From Gammaproteobacteria bacterium (GTDB lineage Bacteria; Pseudomonadota; Gammaproteobacteria; Pseudomonadales; Azotimanducaceae_A): a DNA stretch of 12,200 nucleotides. Location: NCBI GenBank assembly GCA_012960755.1, contig DUAT01000174.1, positions 1 through 12,200 of the forward strand, given 5' to 3'. This document shows, piece by piece, positions 1 to 8,863 of the stretch. Within the stretch, counting starts at the first letter, position 1; every line of letters starts with the position of its first letter. The translations under genes and the position numbers were made by a program. The notes below the pieces were generated by a model. The model searched no databases, was not told the origin of the DNA, and saw nothing but the letters and a program-made list of their open reading frames with translations.

Positions 1-624
1 ATGATCAAACTATATGGCCTTCGCATGAGCAACTACTACAGCTTAACCAAAGCACTACTCATTGAGAAAGGATTAGAATTTGAAGAAGTGAAAACGCCAC
101 CCAGCCAAGAGGAAGGTTTCCTGGCCAAGTCTCCGATGGGCAAAATGCCCGCTATCGAAGCTGACGGGGTGTATCTATCCGAATCGTTAGCGATCGCCCA
201 TTACCTTCAAAGCATTCAACCAGACCCCGCGTTGCTACCTGCCGGCTCAATACCGGCAGCAAAAGTGATGGAGTTGGTGTGCCATTTAAAGTTAGATGTT
301 GATCTAGTTGCCCGTCGCCTGCTCCCCGAAGTGTTATTCAAGCAACCGGTATCAGAGGAAACTAAGACTTATGTTAAAGCAGATCTAGCTAAGGGTATGA
401 AAGCGGTTGGGCGCCTCTTTGTTGGTGCACCATACGCTGCTGGCGAACAATTCACTCTGGCAGACCTCTATACTTTTTACTGTTTCGGGTTCTCCAACGG
501 CATGGTCAGCGCCATATACGGTGAAGATTTACTAGCCAATTACCCTAATATTCAGAAAGTTATGGATTTGATTGCCCAGCGCCCAAGCGTGAAGCAGGTA
601 GAGACAGAAAAATCGACTCGATGA
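1..624 (+). CDS. Glutathione S-transferase family protein
   Basis: A cytosolic GST-fold protein of 207 residues, the usual family length, predicted to conjugate or reduce electrophilic compounds with glutathione. The N-terminal thioredoxin-like domain (about 1-78) opens with MIKLYG, has the cis-proline loop MGKMPAI (Pro50) and the glutathione-contacting Glu61-Ser62 in the SESLAIAHYL segment. The C-terminal helical domain (about 85-200) carries the conserved FTLADLY N-capping box (Thr152, Asp155). Ser10, Tyr12 and Ser14 near the N terminus are the candidates for the residue activating glutathione; I cannot choose between them. The ATG is the first base of the window, so its ribosome binding site is not visible, but the N terminus matches the normal GST beginning and the gene appears complete. 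It stands alone, followed by a 480-base gap. The exact GST class and substrate are unknown. Confidence 0.93.
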   Translation: MIKLYGLRMSNYYSLTKALLIEKGLEFEEVKTPPSQEEGFLAKSPMGKMPAIEADGVYLSESLAIAHYLQSIQPDPALLPAGSIPAAKVMELVCHLKLDVDLVARRLLPEVLFKQPVSEETKTYVKADLAKGMKAVGRLFVGAPYAAGEQFTLADLYTFYCFGFSNGMVSAIYGEDLLANYPNIQKVMDLIAQRPSVKQVETEKSTR

Positions 625-1104: not shown

Positions 1105-2706
1105 ATGTTAAACACCTTCCTGCGGATTATATTGCTGATTGTCGGCGTCGCGCTTCACGGTGAACTAAGCGCCATGACTCATGTCCAGATTAATCTCCAG
1201 GAAGTCCACCAGCGTATTGACGGATTTGGTGCTTCCGATGCCTGGTCTGTTAATCCAACCATTAACTTATGGCTGAGCGAAAATGAACCAGCCCAGATTG
1301 AAGCGCTAGCCAGGATATTGTTTTCTGTTGATACTGGCATTGGCCTGTCGGCCTGGCGGTTTAATATCGGTGCCGGCAGCTTCGAGCAGGGCAGCGGCAG
1401 TCAGATTAACGACGCTTTGCGTAGAACTGAACTCATGGTACCCAGGCCCTATGGCAAGATAACTAAGGGCAAGCAACTTGGCCAGATAAAGCTGCTGCAG
1501 GCGGCTCGGGCTATGGGTGTTAGACAATTTGTAGCCTTCGCCAATAGTCCGCCAGTATGGGCGACGAAGAACGGGCTGGCGCACCCAGGAGATGGCACTG
1601 AAATTGGTTCCACAAATCTGTCGCCACGCCAACTGAAGCAGTTCGTGAGGTTCCTGGTTGATGTTCTATTATACCTGCGTGGCGATAGCGTCGGTGTCCC
1701 GGTGAACCATATAAGCCCGGTAAACGAGCCGAGCTGGTCCTGGCAGAATAGCTCCCAAGAAGCTAATCGATATAACTTGCAGGACCTTAAGAATGTGTAT
1801 AAAGCGCTGTATGCCGAGCTTAAATCGGCCGGCCTTGAAACCGATATCAGCATCGATGCGGGCGAAGTTGCGGAATACAGCAGCGCGTTAAGCGATGCCA
1901 TCAAGAAAAGTTTCGATGGAAATATTTACCAGGTCGCAATGAATGCAAGGGGACTTGGCGTTTACAGAAATTACATAGATGAATTGCTCGGAGATGTTCA
2001 GCTAAACCCGATAATCCACAATAAACTGTCTTTGCACGGGTACTGGTCTGATGCTGACGAACGCCGCCTGGGGGATCTGCGCGATGCGGTACGGGACAAC
2101 GTTCGCTCAGTCGCACCGAAGGCAACCCTTTGGATGAGTGAATTCTCTATTCTTGGAGAGGCAAGTAGTCTCAGGCCATTCTCGGGGCACGGATTTAATG
2201 TGGAAGATATGGACTACGCTATTCATGTCGCCCGGGTCATTCATCGTGATTTGATACGCTTGGAGGTTTCTGCTTGGTTCTGGTGGTTAGCACTTACGCC
2301 CTATGATTATAAAGATGGTTTGTTAAAAATAGCGCCCTCCCTGGAATTCAAAACATTACAGGCTTCTAAGCTGATGTGGACCCTGGGTAATTTCAGTCGT
2401 TTTGTTCGCCCTGGATACTCGCGGGTCACGCTCACTGGTGCGGACCACTTAAATGAGGTGATGGCGTCTGCGTACAAGGATCCCAGCAGTACTCGTCTGG
2501 TCGTAGTCGCCATTAATGCGAGCGGCTCTGAGCAGAATTTGGCACTCAGTATTACGGGAATCAAGTCGTCTCAGGAGATTAAGAATTTCGACATTTATGT
2601 CACGAATGCAGATCATAACCTGACCTTGATGGCATCTACCAATGCACCGGGCCCCTACCTTTTACCCAGCCGATCTGTGGTGACCCTGATTGGTCGCATT
2701 CAATAG
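1105..2706 (+). CDS. Secreted GH30-type glycoside hydrolase
   Basis: A predicted exported glycosidase of 533 residues resembling the endo-beta-1,6-galactanase/xylanase side of family GH30, retaining enzymes with a (beta/alpha)8 barrel and a side beta domain. Residues 1 to about 23 form a signal peptide (hydrophobic core FLRIILLIVGVAL). The entry motif QRIDGFGASDAWS (36-48), the strand FANSPPVWATKNG (145-157), the acid/base segment SPVNEPSW (Glu208) and the nucleophile segment WMSEFSIL (Glu346) all fit the family. The C-terminal part (about 430-533) is the beta-rich side domain. Start: ATG at 1105 keeps the signal peptide; no strong ribosome binding site is visible. It is a lone gene with a palindrome in its promoter region, and it converges with the hydrolase behind it, 48 bases apart. 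The substrate polysaccharide cannot be fixed from sequence; galactan or xylan are the best guesses. Confidence 0.85.
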   Translation: MLNTFLRIILLIVGVALHGELSAMTHVQINLQEVHQRIDGFGASDAWSVNPTINLWLSENEPAQIEALARILFSVDTGIGLSAWRFNIGAGSFEQGSGSQINDALRRTELMVPRPYGKITKGKQLGQIKLLQAARAMGVRQFVAFANSPPVWATKNGLAHPGDGTEIGSTNLSPRQLKQFVRFLVDVLLYLRGDSVGVPVNHISPVNEPSWSWQNSSQEANRYNLQDLKNVYKALYAELKSAGLETDISIDAGEVAEYSSALSDAIKKSFDGNIYQVAMNARGLGVYRNYIDELLGDVQLNPIIHNKLSLHGYWSDADERRLGDLRDAVRDNVRSVAPKATLWMSEFSILGEASSLRPFSGHGFNVEDMDYAIHVARVIHRDLIRLEVSAWFWWLALTPYDYKDGLLKIAPSLEFKTLQASKLMWTLGNFSRFVRPGYSRVTLTGADHLNEVMASAYKDPSSTRLVVVAINASGSEQNLALSITGIKSSQEIKNFDIYVTNADHNLTLMASTNAPGPYLLPSRSVVTLIGRIQ

Positions 2707-4841: not shown

Positions 4842-5453
4842 GTGCCTGAGCAAATGACCCTTAATGAGGCGATGTACAATTGTCGCGCTATGCGACGACT
4901 GGAATCGCGTGATGTTCCTGAAGCCGATCTAATCCAGCTGATTGACGCTGCAAACCAGGCACCTTCTGGCTCGAACTCCCAGAACGCGCGTTGGGTAGTC
5001 GTCAGGGACGCCGCACAGAAACAGAAACTGGCAGATCTTAATCGCAAACATGCAGAACCCTATATCGCGCCGCAGCGAGCGAATCCACCTAATGAAAAAC
5101 ACAAACGGCTAGTTGATGCGGTGGTATGGCAAATGGACCATATGCATGAAATCCCCGCATTGATAGTGGCTTGCTTTGACTATCCGGAAAAGGTTGAAGG
5201 ACTGGGCGTTTATCGAAGTGCTGGTTCAGTCTGGCCGGGTATTCAAAATCTGTTACTCACAGCGCGGTCATTAGGACTAGGCGCAGCACCTACGACACTG
5301 GCTTTGCGGGACCAGCATGCTGTCAGGGATGTGTTGAACCTGCCAGAAACTTTTGCGGCGCTCTGCCTGATTCCCGTTGGCTATCCCAAGGGGAAATTTG
5401 GGCCGGTCAGCCGAAAGCCGGTTGCCGACGTTATGCGCTTCGATCGCTGGTAG
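4842..5453 (+). CDS. Nitroreductase family protein (FMN-dependent)
   Basis: A 203-residue flavoprotein of the nitroreductase fold, normally a cytosolic FMN homodimer that uses NAD(P)H to reduce nitro groups, quinones or similar acceptors. The N-terminal FMN phosphate site is CRAMRRLES (Arg15, Arg18, Arg19), followed by the APSGSNSQNARWVVV segment (40-54). The dimer helix WPGIQNLLLTARSLGLGA (131-148) and the late GYPKGKFGPVSRKPVADV segment (180-197) are also typical. Length is normal. The start is GTG: GGAG at 4830-4833 sits 8 bases in front of it, whereas the next ATG (4854) would lose a conserved-looking N terminus. It is transcribed away from the CocE-type gene across a dyad-rich region of about 240 bases. 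Subfamily and substrate are not determined. Confidence 0.88.
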   Translation: MPEQMTLNEAMYNCRAMRRLESRDVPEADLIQLIDAANQAPSGSNSQNARWVVVRDAAQKQKLADLNRKHAEPYIAPQRANPPNEKHKRLVDAVVWQMDHMHEIPALIVACFDYPEKVEGLGVYRSAGSVWPGIQNLLLTARSLGLGAAPTTLALRDQHAVRDVLNLPETFAALCLIPVGYPKGKFGPVSRKPVADVMRFDRW

Positions 5454-5484: not shown

Positions 5485-5757
5485 TCAAACTAAGGACCGC
5501 CATCGTAAAACGCGAGCGCCTTTGGTGACATTTGGGCGTAGACCCACCTCGGCCTTTGAGTGATAGTGATCCTCTAACTTGGATGCAATATGTTTTGCAG
5601 CGAAGGATGCCCTAGTAGAAGATTCAGTCCGTAGCGACTTAACAAACCTTAGTCGAGAATAATATGGCTCTAAATCTTTGGGGATCACACGACAGAAATA
5701 ATAAACGCCCTCTTTCGCGTATGTATATTTTAGGTGTGCTTTTACCTTCGGTTCCAT
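5485..5757 (-). pseudogene. Truncated tyrosine recombinase, N-terminal DUF6538-like part only
   Basis: These 90 residues match the N-terminal DNA-binding region (DUF6538 type) of phage-like integrases: YTYAKEGVYYFCRVIPKDLEP (11-31), then RLRFVKSLRT (35-44) and a helical AAKHIASKLEDHY segment (53-65). Complete relatives have several hundred residues with a core-binding domain and a catalytic domain carrying the Arg-His-Arg-Tyr residues. None of that is present: after about residue 70 the frame ends in unrelated sequence and the nitroreductase gene begins. The start looks usable (a GGGGG stretch six bases before the ATG). It is therefore the surviving 5' end of an integrase gene, a sign that a mobile element once sat here. 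A functional small protein is possible but I consider it unlikely. Confidence 0.72.
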
Positions 5758-5989: not shown

Positions 5990-6982
5990 CTATTCGCTAT
6001 CCGCAGCTGCTAGTCTGGTTGCTCTTCGAGCGAGTTTCTGTGCGAGATTCGGACCCACACCAGGCAGAGACCAGGGACAAACAGCCATACAGATGGCGCA
6101 GCCCGAACTTTCGGCAAAGAAAGGAATACATCGATCGAAATTGACGTACCACTTGTCTTCTCCTCGTACGGTTTGCTTTTCTGACTTTATCGCCAATGGC
6201 GGGCAGGCGTTCTCACAAACACGACAGCGACTGCAGAAGTCGTCAATACCGAATTCGCGACGGGAGGTGAGCGCAAAGGGCGCGTCGGTAAGTACTGCCC
6301 CTAAACGAAACGCCGATCCAAATTCTGGGTTGATGATCGATCCATGCTTGCCCAGCTCTCCAAAGCCGCATTCCAATGCCGGCGGGATCATCAGAATCTT
6401 GCCAGTCATAGGCCCCGTCACCGCATCAGCACGATAACCTTGGTCACGCAGCCAAGCCGCTACCTTCTTACTCACCTCTGCTGCACGCACATACTGACGA
6501 GTCACATCCTTACCACCACGTATAGCGGGTACATGTTTCAACTCTTCGTAGTCGTGTTTTACCCCTAGAACGACAACATGCGGCAAGTCGACTTCTTCCT
6601 GGTCAAATACCCACTCAGGTTTTAGATGCGCAACGCCTGTCATTTCGCAATCGCCCGCCTCGACGAAGGATTGCAGCGCAGCAGTCCATGCTTCGGGACT
6701 GCGCTCAACAATCTGCTCTGCAACGGCCGGCAACGGAGCCTCCACCGCCGTGCGCCGGCTGGCACGTAGCGCATTCATCTCTTCATCAGGTTGTTCATGA
6801 CCGTAGAACCACTTCTGAGCCTCGCCGAAGACTGCACTGCCCATATCGGGAGCCCACCACACCATGCGCGGTGCCCGGATCTCAGATTCACCCAGGCCAT
6901 TCACATCGTTACCGCTGTAGTCTCCAAGTAACTCAATGAAATCAGGATCGGGCGTATAGGGCCTGTAGGGGTTTTTTGGCAC
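5990..6982 (-). CDS. RdhA-like reductive dehalogenase homologue (corrinoid, two [4Fe-4S])
   Basis: A 330-residue protein of the reductive dehalogenase/epoxyqueuosine-reductase-like group, predicted to hold a corrinoid and pass electrons from two [4Fe-4S] clusters. The corrinoid-binding half shows VVVLGVKHDYEEL (136-148), QYVRAAEVSKKVAAWLRDQGY (163-183; Tyr164 is my candidate catalytic tyrosine) and the GFGELGKHGSIINPEFG segment (206-222). The ferredoxin part has Cys250, 253, 256, 260 followed by Pro, then Cys285, 295, 298, 302 followed by Pro. Unlike respiratory RdhA it has no twin-arginine signal and no RdhB anchor gene beside it, and it lacks the fused flavin/ferredoxin reductase part of NpRdhA-type enzymes, so it should be soluble and need an outside reductant. 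Start: GTG at 6982, with GAAGGGAGGT ending four bases before it; an ATG 96 bases upstream lacks such a site. Dehalogenation itself is inference; another reductive corrinoid reaction is possible. Confidence 0.82.
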   Translation of the reverse strand: MPKNPYRPYTPDPDFIELLGDYSGNDVNGLGESEIRAPRMVWWAPDMGSAVFGEAQKWFYGHEQPDEEMNALRASRRTAVEAPLPAVAEQIVERSPEAWTAALQSFVEAGDCEMTGVAHLKPEWVFDQEEVDLPHVVVLGVKHDYEELKHVPAIRGGKDVTRQYVRAAEVSKKVAAWLRDQGYRADAVTGPMTGKILMIPPALECGFGELGKHGSIINPEFGSAFRLGAVLTDAPFALTSRREFGIDDFCSRCRVCENACPPLAIKSEKQTVRGEDKWYVNFDRCIPFFAESSGCAICMAVCPWSLPGVGPNLAQKLARRATRLAAADSE

Positions 6983-7148
6983 AGTTACCTCCCTTCTAGT
7001 GAGCAGTCGCGCTCGTTCAGCATAACAATATTCCCGGGGATGGCACGAATTAACGATGTTTTTTGCAATGGTTACCAAGTCATTCTCGCCTCAGCGATTG
7101 GGCATTTAGCCTGGAGTCGAACGAAATCCATGGTTAATCAGAGGTAAG

Positions 7149-7556: not shown

Positions 7557-8804
7557 TTAAGCCACTATCCTTACCGGCAGGTCAGCATATCCACGCAGTA
7601 CATTTGATCGAATCCTGACAGGTTGCCCCACCACTTCCACTTTGAACCGTGGCAGGATTTCCTCCCACAAAACTCGTAATTGCATTTCCGCCATACGGTT
7701 GCCCATGCATCTGTGAATACCATAACCAAACGACAGGTGGGAGCGGGCATTTTTCCGATCAATAACCAGACGTTCCGCATCCTTAAACTGCGTTTCATCC
7801 CGATTACCGGAAATGTACCACATGATAACCTTGTCGCCTTTGCTGATATGTTCGCCGCCAATTTCCACGTCTTTCAGCGCGGTTCTTCTCATGTGGGGTA
7901 TTGGTGTTTGCCAGCGAATAATCTCCGACACCATGTTGCGTATCAAGCTAGGGTTATCGATTAGTTTCTCATACTCGGCCGGGTACTGATTTAGCGCCAA
8001 CACGCCGCCTGAAATACTGTTACGTGTTGTGTCGTTACCGCCGACGATCAATAGTACCAGATTACCCAGATATTCAAGGGGTGGCATATTCCGGGTGGCA
8101 TCACCGTGCACTAGCATTGATATCAAATCATTATTAGGCGCCATTGCTTGTCTTTCTTTCCAGAGGTTCTGGAAGTATTCGAGGCATTCCATCAGCACTT
8201 TTCTTCGGTGGTTGGCCGAATCCACCACGCCTGATATTCGGCCACCACCGGCCACATCAGACCAGTAAGTCAACTTTGTACGGTCTTCGAATGGGAAGTC
8301 AAGCAGGGTTGCCAACATCTGCGTGGTTAAATCGATGGACACCCGCTCCACCCAGTTGAAAGTTTCATCAAAAGGTAAATTATCCAGGATTGCGATGACA
8401 CGCTGCCGAATCGTATCTTCGAGCTTCGCCAGATTTCTTGGCGCGACCACGGGGCTAACCACTTTACGCTGGGCGTGATGTCTTGGCTGATCCATGGCGA
8501 TAAACATGGGCAGCTCGAATTCATCGGGCTGGTCGAATATGGTGATGTCGCGATCAGATGAAAAAAGATCAGCATGGGAGTCTACCCACTTGATATCCTT
8601 GTAAGCGGACAAGCTCCAGTACGGCCCGTAGCGGCTCTCAGCGCAGAAGTGAACCGGCGCCTCGTTTCTCAGGCGTTCAAAATAAGGCCAGTGTGAATCA
8701 GTCCGATATAGTTCCGCCTCGCTGACGTCGAACTGGTCCAGCGGTAAATCGGCTGCACGTTTTACGGCCAACGCGAGTTCGTTATTCTGGTATGGGTTGT
8801 TCAT
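7557..8804 (-). CDS. CYP153-like cytochrome P450 (alkane/fatty-acid hydroxylase type)
   Basis: A soluble bacterial P450 of 415 residues. All hallmarks are present: I-helix GGNDTT (255-260), the ExxR motif Glu294-Arg297, the PERF-like region near 344, and the haem loop FGYGIHRCMG with Cys366 as iron ligand. Long stretches fit family CYP153, notably LPMFIAMDQPRH (98-109), VSPVVAPRNL (116-125), WVERVSIDLTTQMLATLLDFPFE (151-173), HLSFGYGIHRCMGNR (356-370) and the RGYADLPVRI end. CYP153 enzymes hydroxylate terminal carbons of alkanes, fatty acids and related chains, taking electrons from a ferredoxin and its reductase. Neither partner is encoded nearby, which is unusual for this family, so an unlinked redox chain is implied. 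I chose the ATG at 8804 (GAGG just in front); a GTG at 8813 is an alternative. It is divergent from the esterase gene. Confidence 0.92.
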   Translation of the reverse strand: MNNPYQNNELALAVKRAADLPLDQFDVSEAELYRTDSHWPYFERLRNEAPVHFCAESRYGPYWSLSAYKDIKWVDSHADLFSSDRDITIFDQPDEFELPMFIAMDQPRHHAQRKVVSPVVAPRNLAKLEDTIRQRVIAILDNLPFDETFNWVERVSIDLTTQMLATLLDFPFEDRTKLTYWSDVAGGGRISGVVDSANHRRKVLMECLEYFQNLWKERQAMAPNNDLISMLVHGDATRNMPPLEYLGNLVLLIVGGNDTTRNSISGGVLALNQYPAEYEKLIDNPSLIRNMVSEIIRWQTPIPHMRRTALKDVEIGGEHISKGDKVIMWYISGNRDETQFKDAERLVIDRKNARSHLSFGYGIHRCMGNRMAEMQLRVLWEEILPRFKVEVVGQPVRIRSNVLRGYADLPVRIVA

Positions 8805-8863
8805 CTGCCTCACTCACTGTTGCGGGCTTTCTCGCAAGTTCTGCACTATTTGTCCAAAGTATG

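Follow-up and report, generated by a model that had tools for sequence, protein, structure and literature searches.

A compact, soluble relative of reductive dehalogenases from a gammaproteobacterium, with kin mainly in marine bacteria

A stand-alone RdhA-like core

We analysed a 12,200-nucleotide stretch of DNA (the window; contig DUAT01000174.1 of assembly GCA_012960755.1, a Gammaproteobacteria bacterium) whose minus strand encodes a 330-residue protein that, judged on its sequence, is a small soluble relative of the vitamin B12 enzymes removing halogens from organic molecules. Computation finds in it the fold of the reductive dehalogenase RdhA, the cysteines of two iron-sulfur clusters and a Tyr/Arg pair, no export, anchor or reductase modules, and a separation from the epoxyqueuosine reductase QueG. 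We lean slightly towards reading it as a cytosolic stand-alone class III cobalamin enzyme of the RdhA/QueG superfamily, likely an accessory reductive dehalogenase. The gene and the positions discussed below are as follows.

5990..6982, minus strand: coding sequence of the compact RdhA-superfamily protein, GTG start, 330 residues (open reading frame, homology searches, AlphaFold2 (AF2) model)
6987..6993, minus strand: Shine-Dalgarno-like GGGAGGT, the GTG start lying 4 nucleotides (nt) further on (read from the sequence)
6491..6493, minus strand: Y164, equivalent of PceA Y246, NpRdhA Y426 and QueG Y101, proposed proton donor (alignments)
6401..6418, minus strand: T189-G194 loop (TGPMTG), with T193 at the position of PceA N272 and QueG D130 (alignments)
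6305..6307, minus strand: R226, equivalent of PceA R305 and NpRdhA K488 (alignments)
6200..6235, minus strand: first [4Fe-4S] motif, C250-x2-C253-x2-C256-x3-C260-P261 (PF12838, alignment)
6074..6130, minus strand: C285 and second [4Fe-4S] motif, C295-x2-C298-x3-C302-P303, with F289 at the position of NpRdhA R552 (alignments)

The GTG start falls on the same residue as the ATG start of close relatives such as P0002. A 362-residue version opening at a TTG is probably too long, the GTG being favoured by those starts and by the ribosome-binding site. Sequence comparison puts homology to RdhA far beyond chance: the reductive dehalogenase profile TIGR02486 matches at 97.6 bits (E = 1.2e-27), and the best solved relatives in a phmmer search of the PDB are PceA (8q4h, E = 1.6e-29) and NpRdhA. 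The QueG profile TIGR00276 gives a weak match of 47 bits (cut-off 200), and PF08331, which matched the single control QueG scanned, has no match in the 330-residue protein. Both ferredoxin-type motifs, CxxCxxCxxxCP and CxxCxxxCP, are present. A fused reductase domain is absent, with 27 residues left after P303 and 4Fe-4S models the only Pfam matches (PF12838 at the first motif). The AF2 model has a predicted local distance difference test score (pLDDT) of 93.2, with high confidence along the chain, and length, model and structure match all describe a single core. Structure comparison identifies an RdhA fold far nearer RdhA than QueG, with respiratory PceA (8q4h, 4uqu) as the best match and the QueG match restricted to residues 94-309.

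No RR occurs in residues 1-40 of the protein and no hydrophobic 19-mer along it, and the window holds no open reading frame of 45-160 residues with at least two hydrophobic segments; a Tat (twin-arginine translocation) signal, a membrane anchor and a candidate for the RdhB partner are therefore all lacking. An RRxF within the first 60 residues was found in 0 of the 120 relatives listed by the protein search described below. In a rough hydropathy scan 48 of these 120 stood out; a membrane helix was rejected because the strongest hydrophobic windows, all beginning at residues 280-299, fall in the Cys-rich cluster segment. The initial annotation, which had described RdhA-like motifs and two Cys-rich clusters in a soluble, minimal, stand-alone protein free of Tat signal, RdhB and fused reductase, is thus borne out on the first point by TIGR02486, the PDB search and eight invariant cysteines, and on the second by the scans of sequence, window reading frames and Pfam.

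Conservation of the active site

Conservation was assessed over 201 rows (the query, 80 loci and 120 proteins, sets that overlap in origin) and checked in distant paralogues from 9 of 10 regions, L138 being left out. Y164, R226, K212, H213, W278, F289 and all eight cysteines are invariant across 201/201 rows and 9/9 distant paralogues, and position 193 is T in 133 rows, V in 41, A in 25 and S in 2. In the alignments the RdhA-type catalytic Tyr and its Arg/Lys partner are present as Y164 and R226, and the phenol-binding S422, K488 and R552 of NpRdhA correspond to V160, R226 and F289. The numbering along the alignments agrees with the available excerpts of PMC7565698 for NpRdhA (S422, Y426, K488, R552) and of PMC4646009 for PceA (Y246, N272, R305). 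Because Y164 and R226 are invariant and QueG has no equivalent of R305 according to the latter excerpt (PMC4646009), the Tyr-Arg pair is RdhA-like; beyond this pair, the pocket is the group's own.

Placement in the RdhA/QueG superfamily

A tree built from 47 sequences over 177 core columns (23 short proteins, ten fused or NpRdhA-type, seven of about 400 residues, four QueG and three respiratory), in which long branches were flagged, gives branch supports of 98/100 for the short proteins, 100/100 for the fused/NpRdhA-type, 96/94 for the ~400-residue proteins and 100/100 for QueG. The three respiratory sequences form no common branch, and a pairing of the short and ~400-residue proteins as sisters has support of only 43/45. 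With three respiratory sequences and long branches, approximately unbiased (AU) tests reject neither a short group joined to QueG (p = 0.36) nor one joined to the fused proteins (p = 0.31). A position inside QueG, or a loss of the corrinoid-contact residues, had been named at the outset as what would speak against an RdhA-like protein; the short proteins instead occupy a separate branch, the structure of the 330-residue protein lies nearer RdhA, and the alignment retains the Tyr/Arg pair.

The novel features of the short group are its size class, its breadth, and a branch and a pocket of its own. In titles and abstract starts, which covered few subscription papers and are weak evidence of absence, we recognised no account of a ~330-residue group, and the group is large and apparently uncharacterised. 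A bolder proposal, which we hold tentatively and think rather doubtful, is that the short proteins are a distinct class III cobalamin subfamily, alongside QueG and the respiratory, catabolic and transmembrane kinds of RdhA, performing their own reaction in aerobic marine bacteria with the RdhA-type Tyr-Arg pair on a non-halophenol substrate, possibly no organohalide at all.

Distribution and naming

The first protein search scored 7998 candidates, a set that may not be the whole group; 2170 of them reached E <= 1e-3, and the 120 relatives listed are 296-357 residues long (median 331). With a distant paralogue as query, 120 of 5074 relatives were listed, with lengths of 300-356 residues. A scan of GTDB-representative contigs gave 264 stretches coding for a relative, and the best 80 of these were used for the locus analyses. 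By title these 80 are mostly Rhodobacteraceae/Roseobacteraceae and Halieaceae (Luminiphilus), the remainder being Hyphomicrobiales, Woeseiaceae, other Gammaproteobacteria and one Acidimicrobiales metagenome-assembled genome (MAG); the short group is found mainly in marine bacteria. Presence is patchy, with matches in 16 of 150 genomes in the family of G010 (E <= 1e-40; two of the 16 partial), 7 of 100 in the family to which G001 belongs and 3 of 274 in the class of G001 (both E <= 1e-60), all slightly high since known carriers are counted (G009, G010 and G013; G001 and G002; and G001, respectively). One genome of that class, G280, has four short-family matches (L117, L119, L121 and L122, one of them partial), a lineage-specific expansion.

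When 13 carrier genomes were searched with TIGR02486, six had a match over the cut-off and another two a protein of fused length scoring slightly below it; the other five have the short protein(s) and QueG only. A separate QueG-like frame occurs in all 13 (genomes of relatives, not the window's own), its identity checked by tree for four and by Pfam for one. Database names for the short group are misleading: relatives, if named, appear as '4Fe-4S dicluster domain-containing protein', 'iron-sulfur cluster-binding protein', 'PreA subunit' or 'pyruvate/2-oxoacid:ferredoxin oxidoreductase delta subunit', and some are misnamed 'ferredoxin' or 'epoxyqueuosine reductase QueG' ('epoxyqueuosine reductase' in JGI).

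Gene neighbourhoods

Neighbour annotation covered 126 adjacent open reading frames of 130-1000 residues from the 80 loci (shorter, longer and masked frames left out), with the 25 commonest of 134 families listed. UbiE-UbiB lies directly upstream on the same strand in 13/80 loci (L044, L049, L054, L055, L057, L059, L060, L062, L064, L074, L075, L077 and L079; tblastn, 73/80 loci having at least 1800 nt upstream), and Coq4 lies upstream in 7/80 (L007, L008, L010, L011, L013, L015 and L017). UbiB neighbours occur in Rhodobacterales-type loci only and Coq4 in Halieaceae-type loci only, two separate placements of the short gene beside ubiquinone genes. On the family tree UbiB changes six times, which can mean repeated placement or losses, and Coq4 once. 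A glutathione S-transferase (GST) gene follows the short gene in 5/80 loci. In L023 (1581-6121) and L029 (8173-11483) a tight same-strand array contains a Rieske ring-hydroxylating dioxygenase (alpha subunit nearest benzoate dioxygenase, plus beta) ending 8 nt upstream of the short gene, then a small thioesterase-like protein (a 4HBT thioesterase in L029, a protein sharing its start in L023) and a zinc alcohol dehydrogenase. A nitroreductase follows the short gene after 18 nt in L036 and 27 nt in L070; in L036 an iron alcohol dehydrogenase lies 40 nt beyond it and an aldehyde dehydrogenase precedes the short gene.

In the window itself the surrounding genes include the following.

7557-8813, minus strand: cytochrome P450, upstream same-strand gene, 574 nt away (SolI 421.8 bits, cut-off 850)
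5485-5757, minus strand: 90-residue open reading frame with DUF6538 (Pfam)
4842-5453, plus strand: nitroreductase-family gene nearest BluB, downstream, about 540 bp from the RdhA-like gene (56 bits, cut-off 150)
1105-2706, plus strand: GH30-family glycosidase (PF14587, 241.8 bits)
1-624, plus strand: GST-family gene, about 5.4 kb from the RdhA-like gene

The window's nitroreductase, CocE hydrolase and beta-lactamase-like gene have no match in the neighbourhoods of relatives. Within 2.5 kb of relatives' short genes, the P450 has one weak match (29%) and the GST four (31-36%), in the Luminiphilus-type loci L010, L013, L015 and L017. The window contains no cobalamin riboswitch or other Rfam RNA at the gathering threshold, no transfer RNA (tRNA) that could mark an island, and no gene for a low-potential electron donor (ferredoxin, or flavodoxin with reductase). 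In L040, 23 nt separate the short gene from an upstream phage-type integrase (177-1424) with an N-terminal DUF6538 domain, and the domain shared with the 90-residue frame of the window hints at mobility.

Proposed mechanism and alternative readings

In the mechanism that we propose, the stripped-down RdhA core would hold a base-off cobamide and two [4Fe-4S] clusters; a separate low-potential donor, a ferredoxin or a flavodoxin with reductase, would reduce the clusters and these the cobalt. The substrate would sit above the cobalt in a pocket without the phenol ligands of NpRdhA, where a carbon-halogen bond, or another polar bond, would be cleaved with a proton from the Y164-R226 pair. Homology suggests the cobamide binding, cofactor set, electron donor and proton transfer, and the fold likewise points to the cofactors and the proton relay. 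In aerobic marine bacteria the enzyme may act as an accessory reductive dehalogenase, serving catabolism or detoxification. A halide as leaving group is the least certain part and the weakest step of this proposal, since the residues that bind the phenol are missing and no gene for dehalogenation is linked to the short gene.

Several further observations weigh against a dehalogenase. The protein does not reach the curated TIGR02486 cut-off of 160.35, nor do the 17/17 short proteins of the 13 carrier genomes (86-114 bits), and its Pfam scan has no match to the PF13486 Dehalogenase domain, which is present in 3/3 stand-alone ~400-residue proteins and in L112, and which the fused control L082 also lacks; 'RdhA' is accordingly too strong a family name. 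The initial picture of a soluble minimal RdhA-like Fe-S protein stands. The known dehalogenase substrate pockets are not conserved, since V160 and F289 replace the phenol-hydroxyl ligands S422 and R552, and T193 (T, V, A or S in relatives) takes the N272/D130 position. No operon partner is universal across the 80 loci, the commonest neighbours are ubiquinone rather than dehalogenation genes, and the genes flanking close relatives of the query are unrelated (an amidase and GH97 in L003, an extracytoplasmic function (ECF) sigma factor in L004, NnrU and an enoyl-CoA hydratase in L005, an acetyltransferase in L006). Eight of the 13 carrier genomes have a further, more RdhA-like protein, so that dehalogenation may already be covered there, and the AU tests are compatible with a short group beside QueG.

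A substantial, if lesser, possibility is that the same cofactors and architecture serve another reaction, the protein being a cobalamin-dependent reductase of an epoxide, quinone-like or aromatic oxygen-substituent bond in quinone, aromatic or acyl metabolism. This would fit the family-specific V160, TGPM loop, T193 and F289, which differ from the aligned RdhAs, the QueG-like G-K-H motif (K212-H213, 201/201), the placement beside QueG rather than within RdhA that the AU tests allow, and the UbiE-UbiB and Coq4 genes upstream, as well as genes for a Rieske dioxygenase or a dehydrogenase next to the short gene at a few loci. However, the Tyr invariably has its RdhA-type partner, R226, the fold is much closer to RdhA than to QueG, and the co-location with UbiB or Coq4, confined to one lineage type each and missing from other carriers, may reflect inheritance or position. 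A QueG paralogue acting on epoxyqueuosine in tRNA, to which the weak TIGR00276 match and the JGI name given to some relatives might point, is very unlikely and strongly disfavoured: QueG identity is rejected by the separate branch of QueG in the tree, the carriers' own QueG-like frames, the replacement of the QueG Asp by T193 and the missing PF08331, and the QueG structure match covers residues 94-309 only. Judging by length, we take the C-terminal tRNA-binding part of QueG to be absent from the 330-residue protein. It is improbable, though less so, that the protein is a non-catalytic or accessory B12 protein, such as a CblC/CblD-like chaperone, that kept the fold. Its shortness beside other RdhAs could also suggest a degenerate or truncated remnant, but the narrow length range of the 120 listed relatives, the strict conservation and the high AF2 confidence along the chain make this a negligible prospect, refuted for practical purposes by the conservation.

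Relation to characterised enzymes

Of the characterised enzymes, Ros_A3X954 of Roseobacter MED193, a 2,6-dibromophenol debrominase without Tat signal, resembles the 330-residue protein in its RdhA core, two [4Fe-4S] motifs and marine host, according to the available part of PMC13101508, so Tat-less reductive dehalogenases in marine heterotrophs are not new. Frames of ~400-455 residues (L086) occur beside the short gene in carrier genomes, and since their cluster motifs lie at nearly the same positions as those of Ros_A3X954 in that excerpt, the ~400-residue group is probably of the same kind; the stand-alone nature of Ros_A3X954, itself not among the tree rows, would follow from these frames. 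Measured stop to stop, they are about 65-125 residues longer than the short protein, and they differ from it in carrying PF13486 (3/3 scanned), in having Asn at the site of PceA N272 and Trp at that of F289, and in forming a separate branch.

The catabolic enzymes BhbA and NpRdhA have a vestigial duplicated N-terminal core, with or without a reductase domain, in the excerpted text of PMC10463259. NpRdhA, cited in the initial annotation as a fused-reductase enzyme, is naturally truncated by that account, the fused ones being of the BhbA/JtRdhA type. Unlike NpRdhA, BhbA and JtRdhA, the 330-residue protein has neither the vestigial half nor the reductase domain of the fused forms, and relative to NpRdhA it has Arg for Lys488 and does not conserve Ser422 and Arg552. 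It keeps both Tyr246 and Arg305 of respiratory PceA, whereas it lacks the Tat signal and RdhB of respiratory RdhA and has Thr, or in relatives Val, Ala or Ser, for Asn272. With QueG it shares the cobalamin and two-cluster superfamily, the Tyr101 equivalent and the G-K-H motif (3/4 aligned QueGs), but it lacks the catalytic Asp and PF08331 and has an Arg that QueG, in the PMC4646009 excerpt, has not. T7RdhA (Acidimicrobiaceae TMED77) is an Acidimicrobiia RdhA-like protein with a corrinoid and two clusters; its pocket residues are numbered to 343 in PMC10008544, beyond the 330 residues here, which makes it probably one of the longer proteins. L003, one of the near relatives of the query, comes from an Acidimicrobiales MAG.

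Implications

A compact soluble RdhA core without export signal, anchor, duplicate half or fused reductase would make a small and appealing system for class III cobalamin chemistry. The short group escapes screens run at the TIGR02486 cut-off. If Roseobacters, Luminiphilus and other marine bacteria do contain such an unrecognised reductase or dehalogenase, estimates of which organisms turn over organohalogens in the sea under oxygen would shift.
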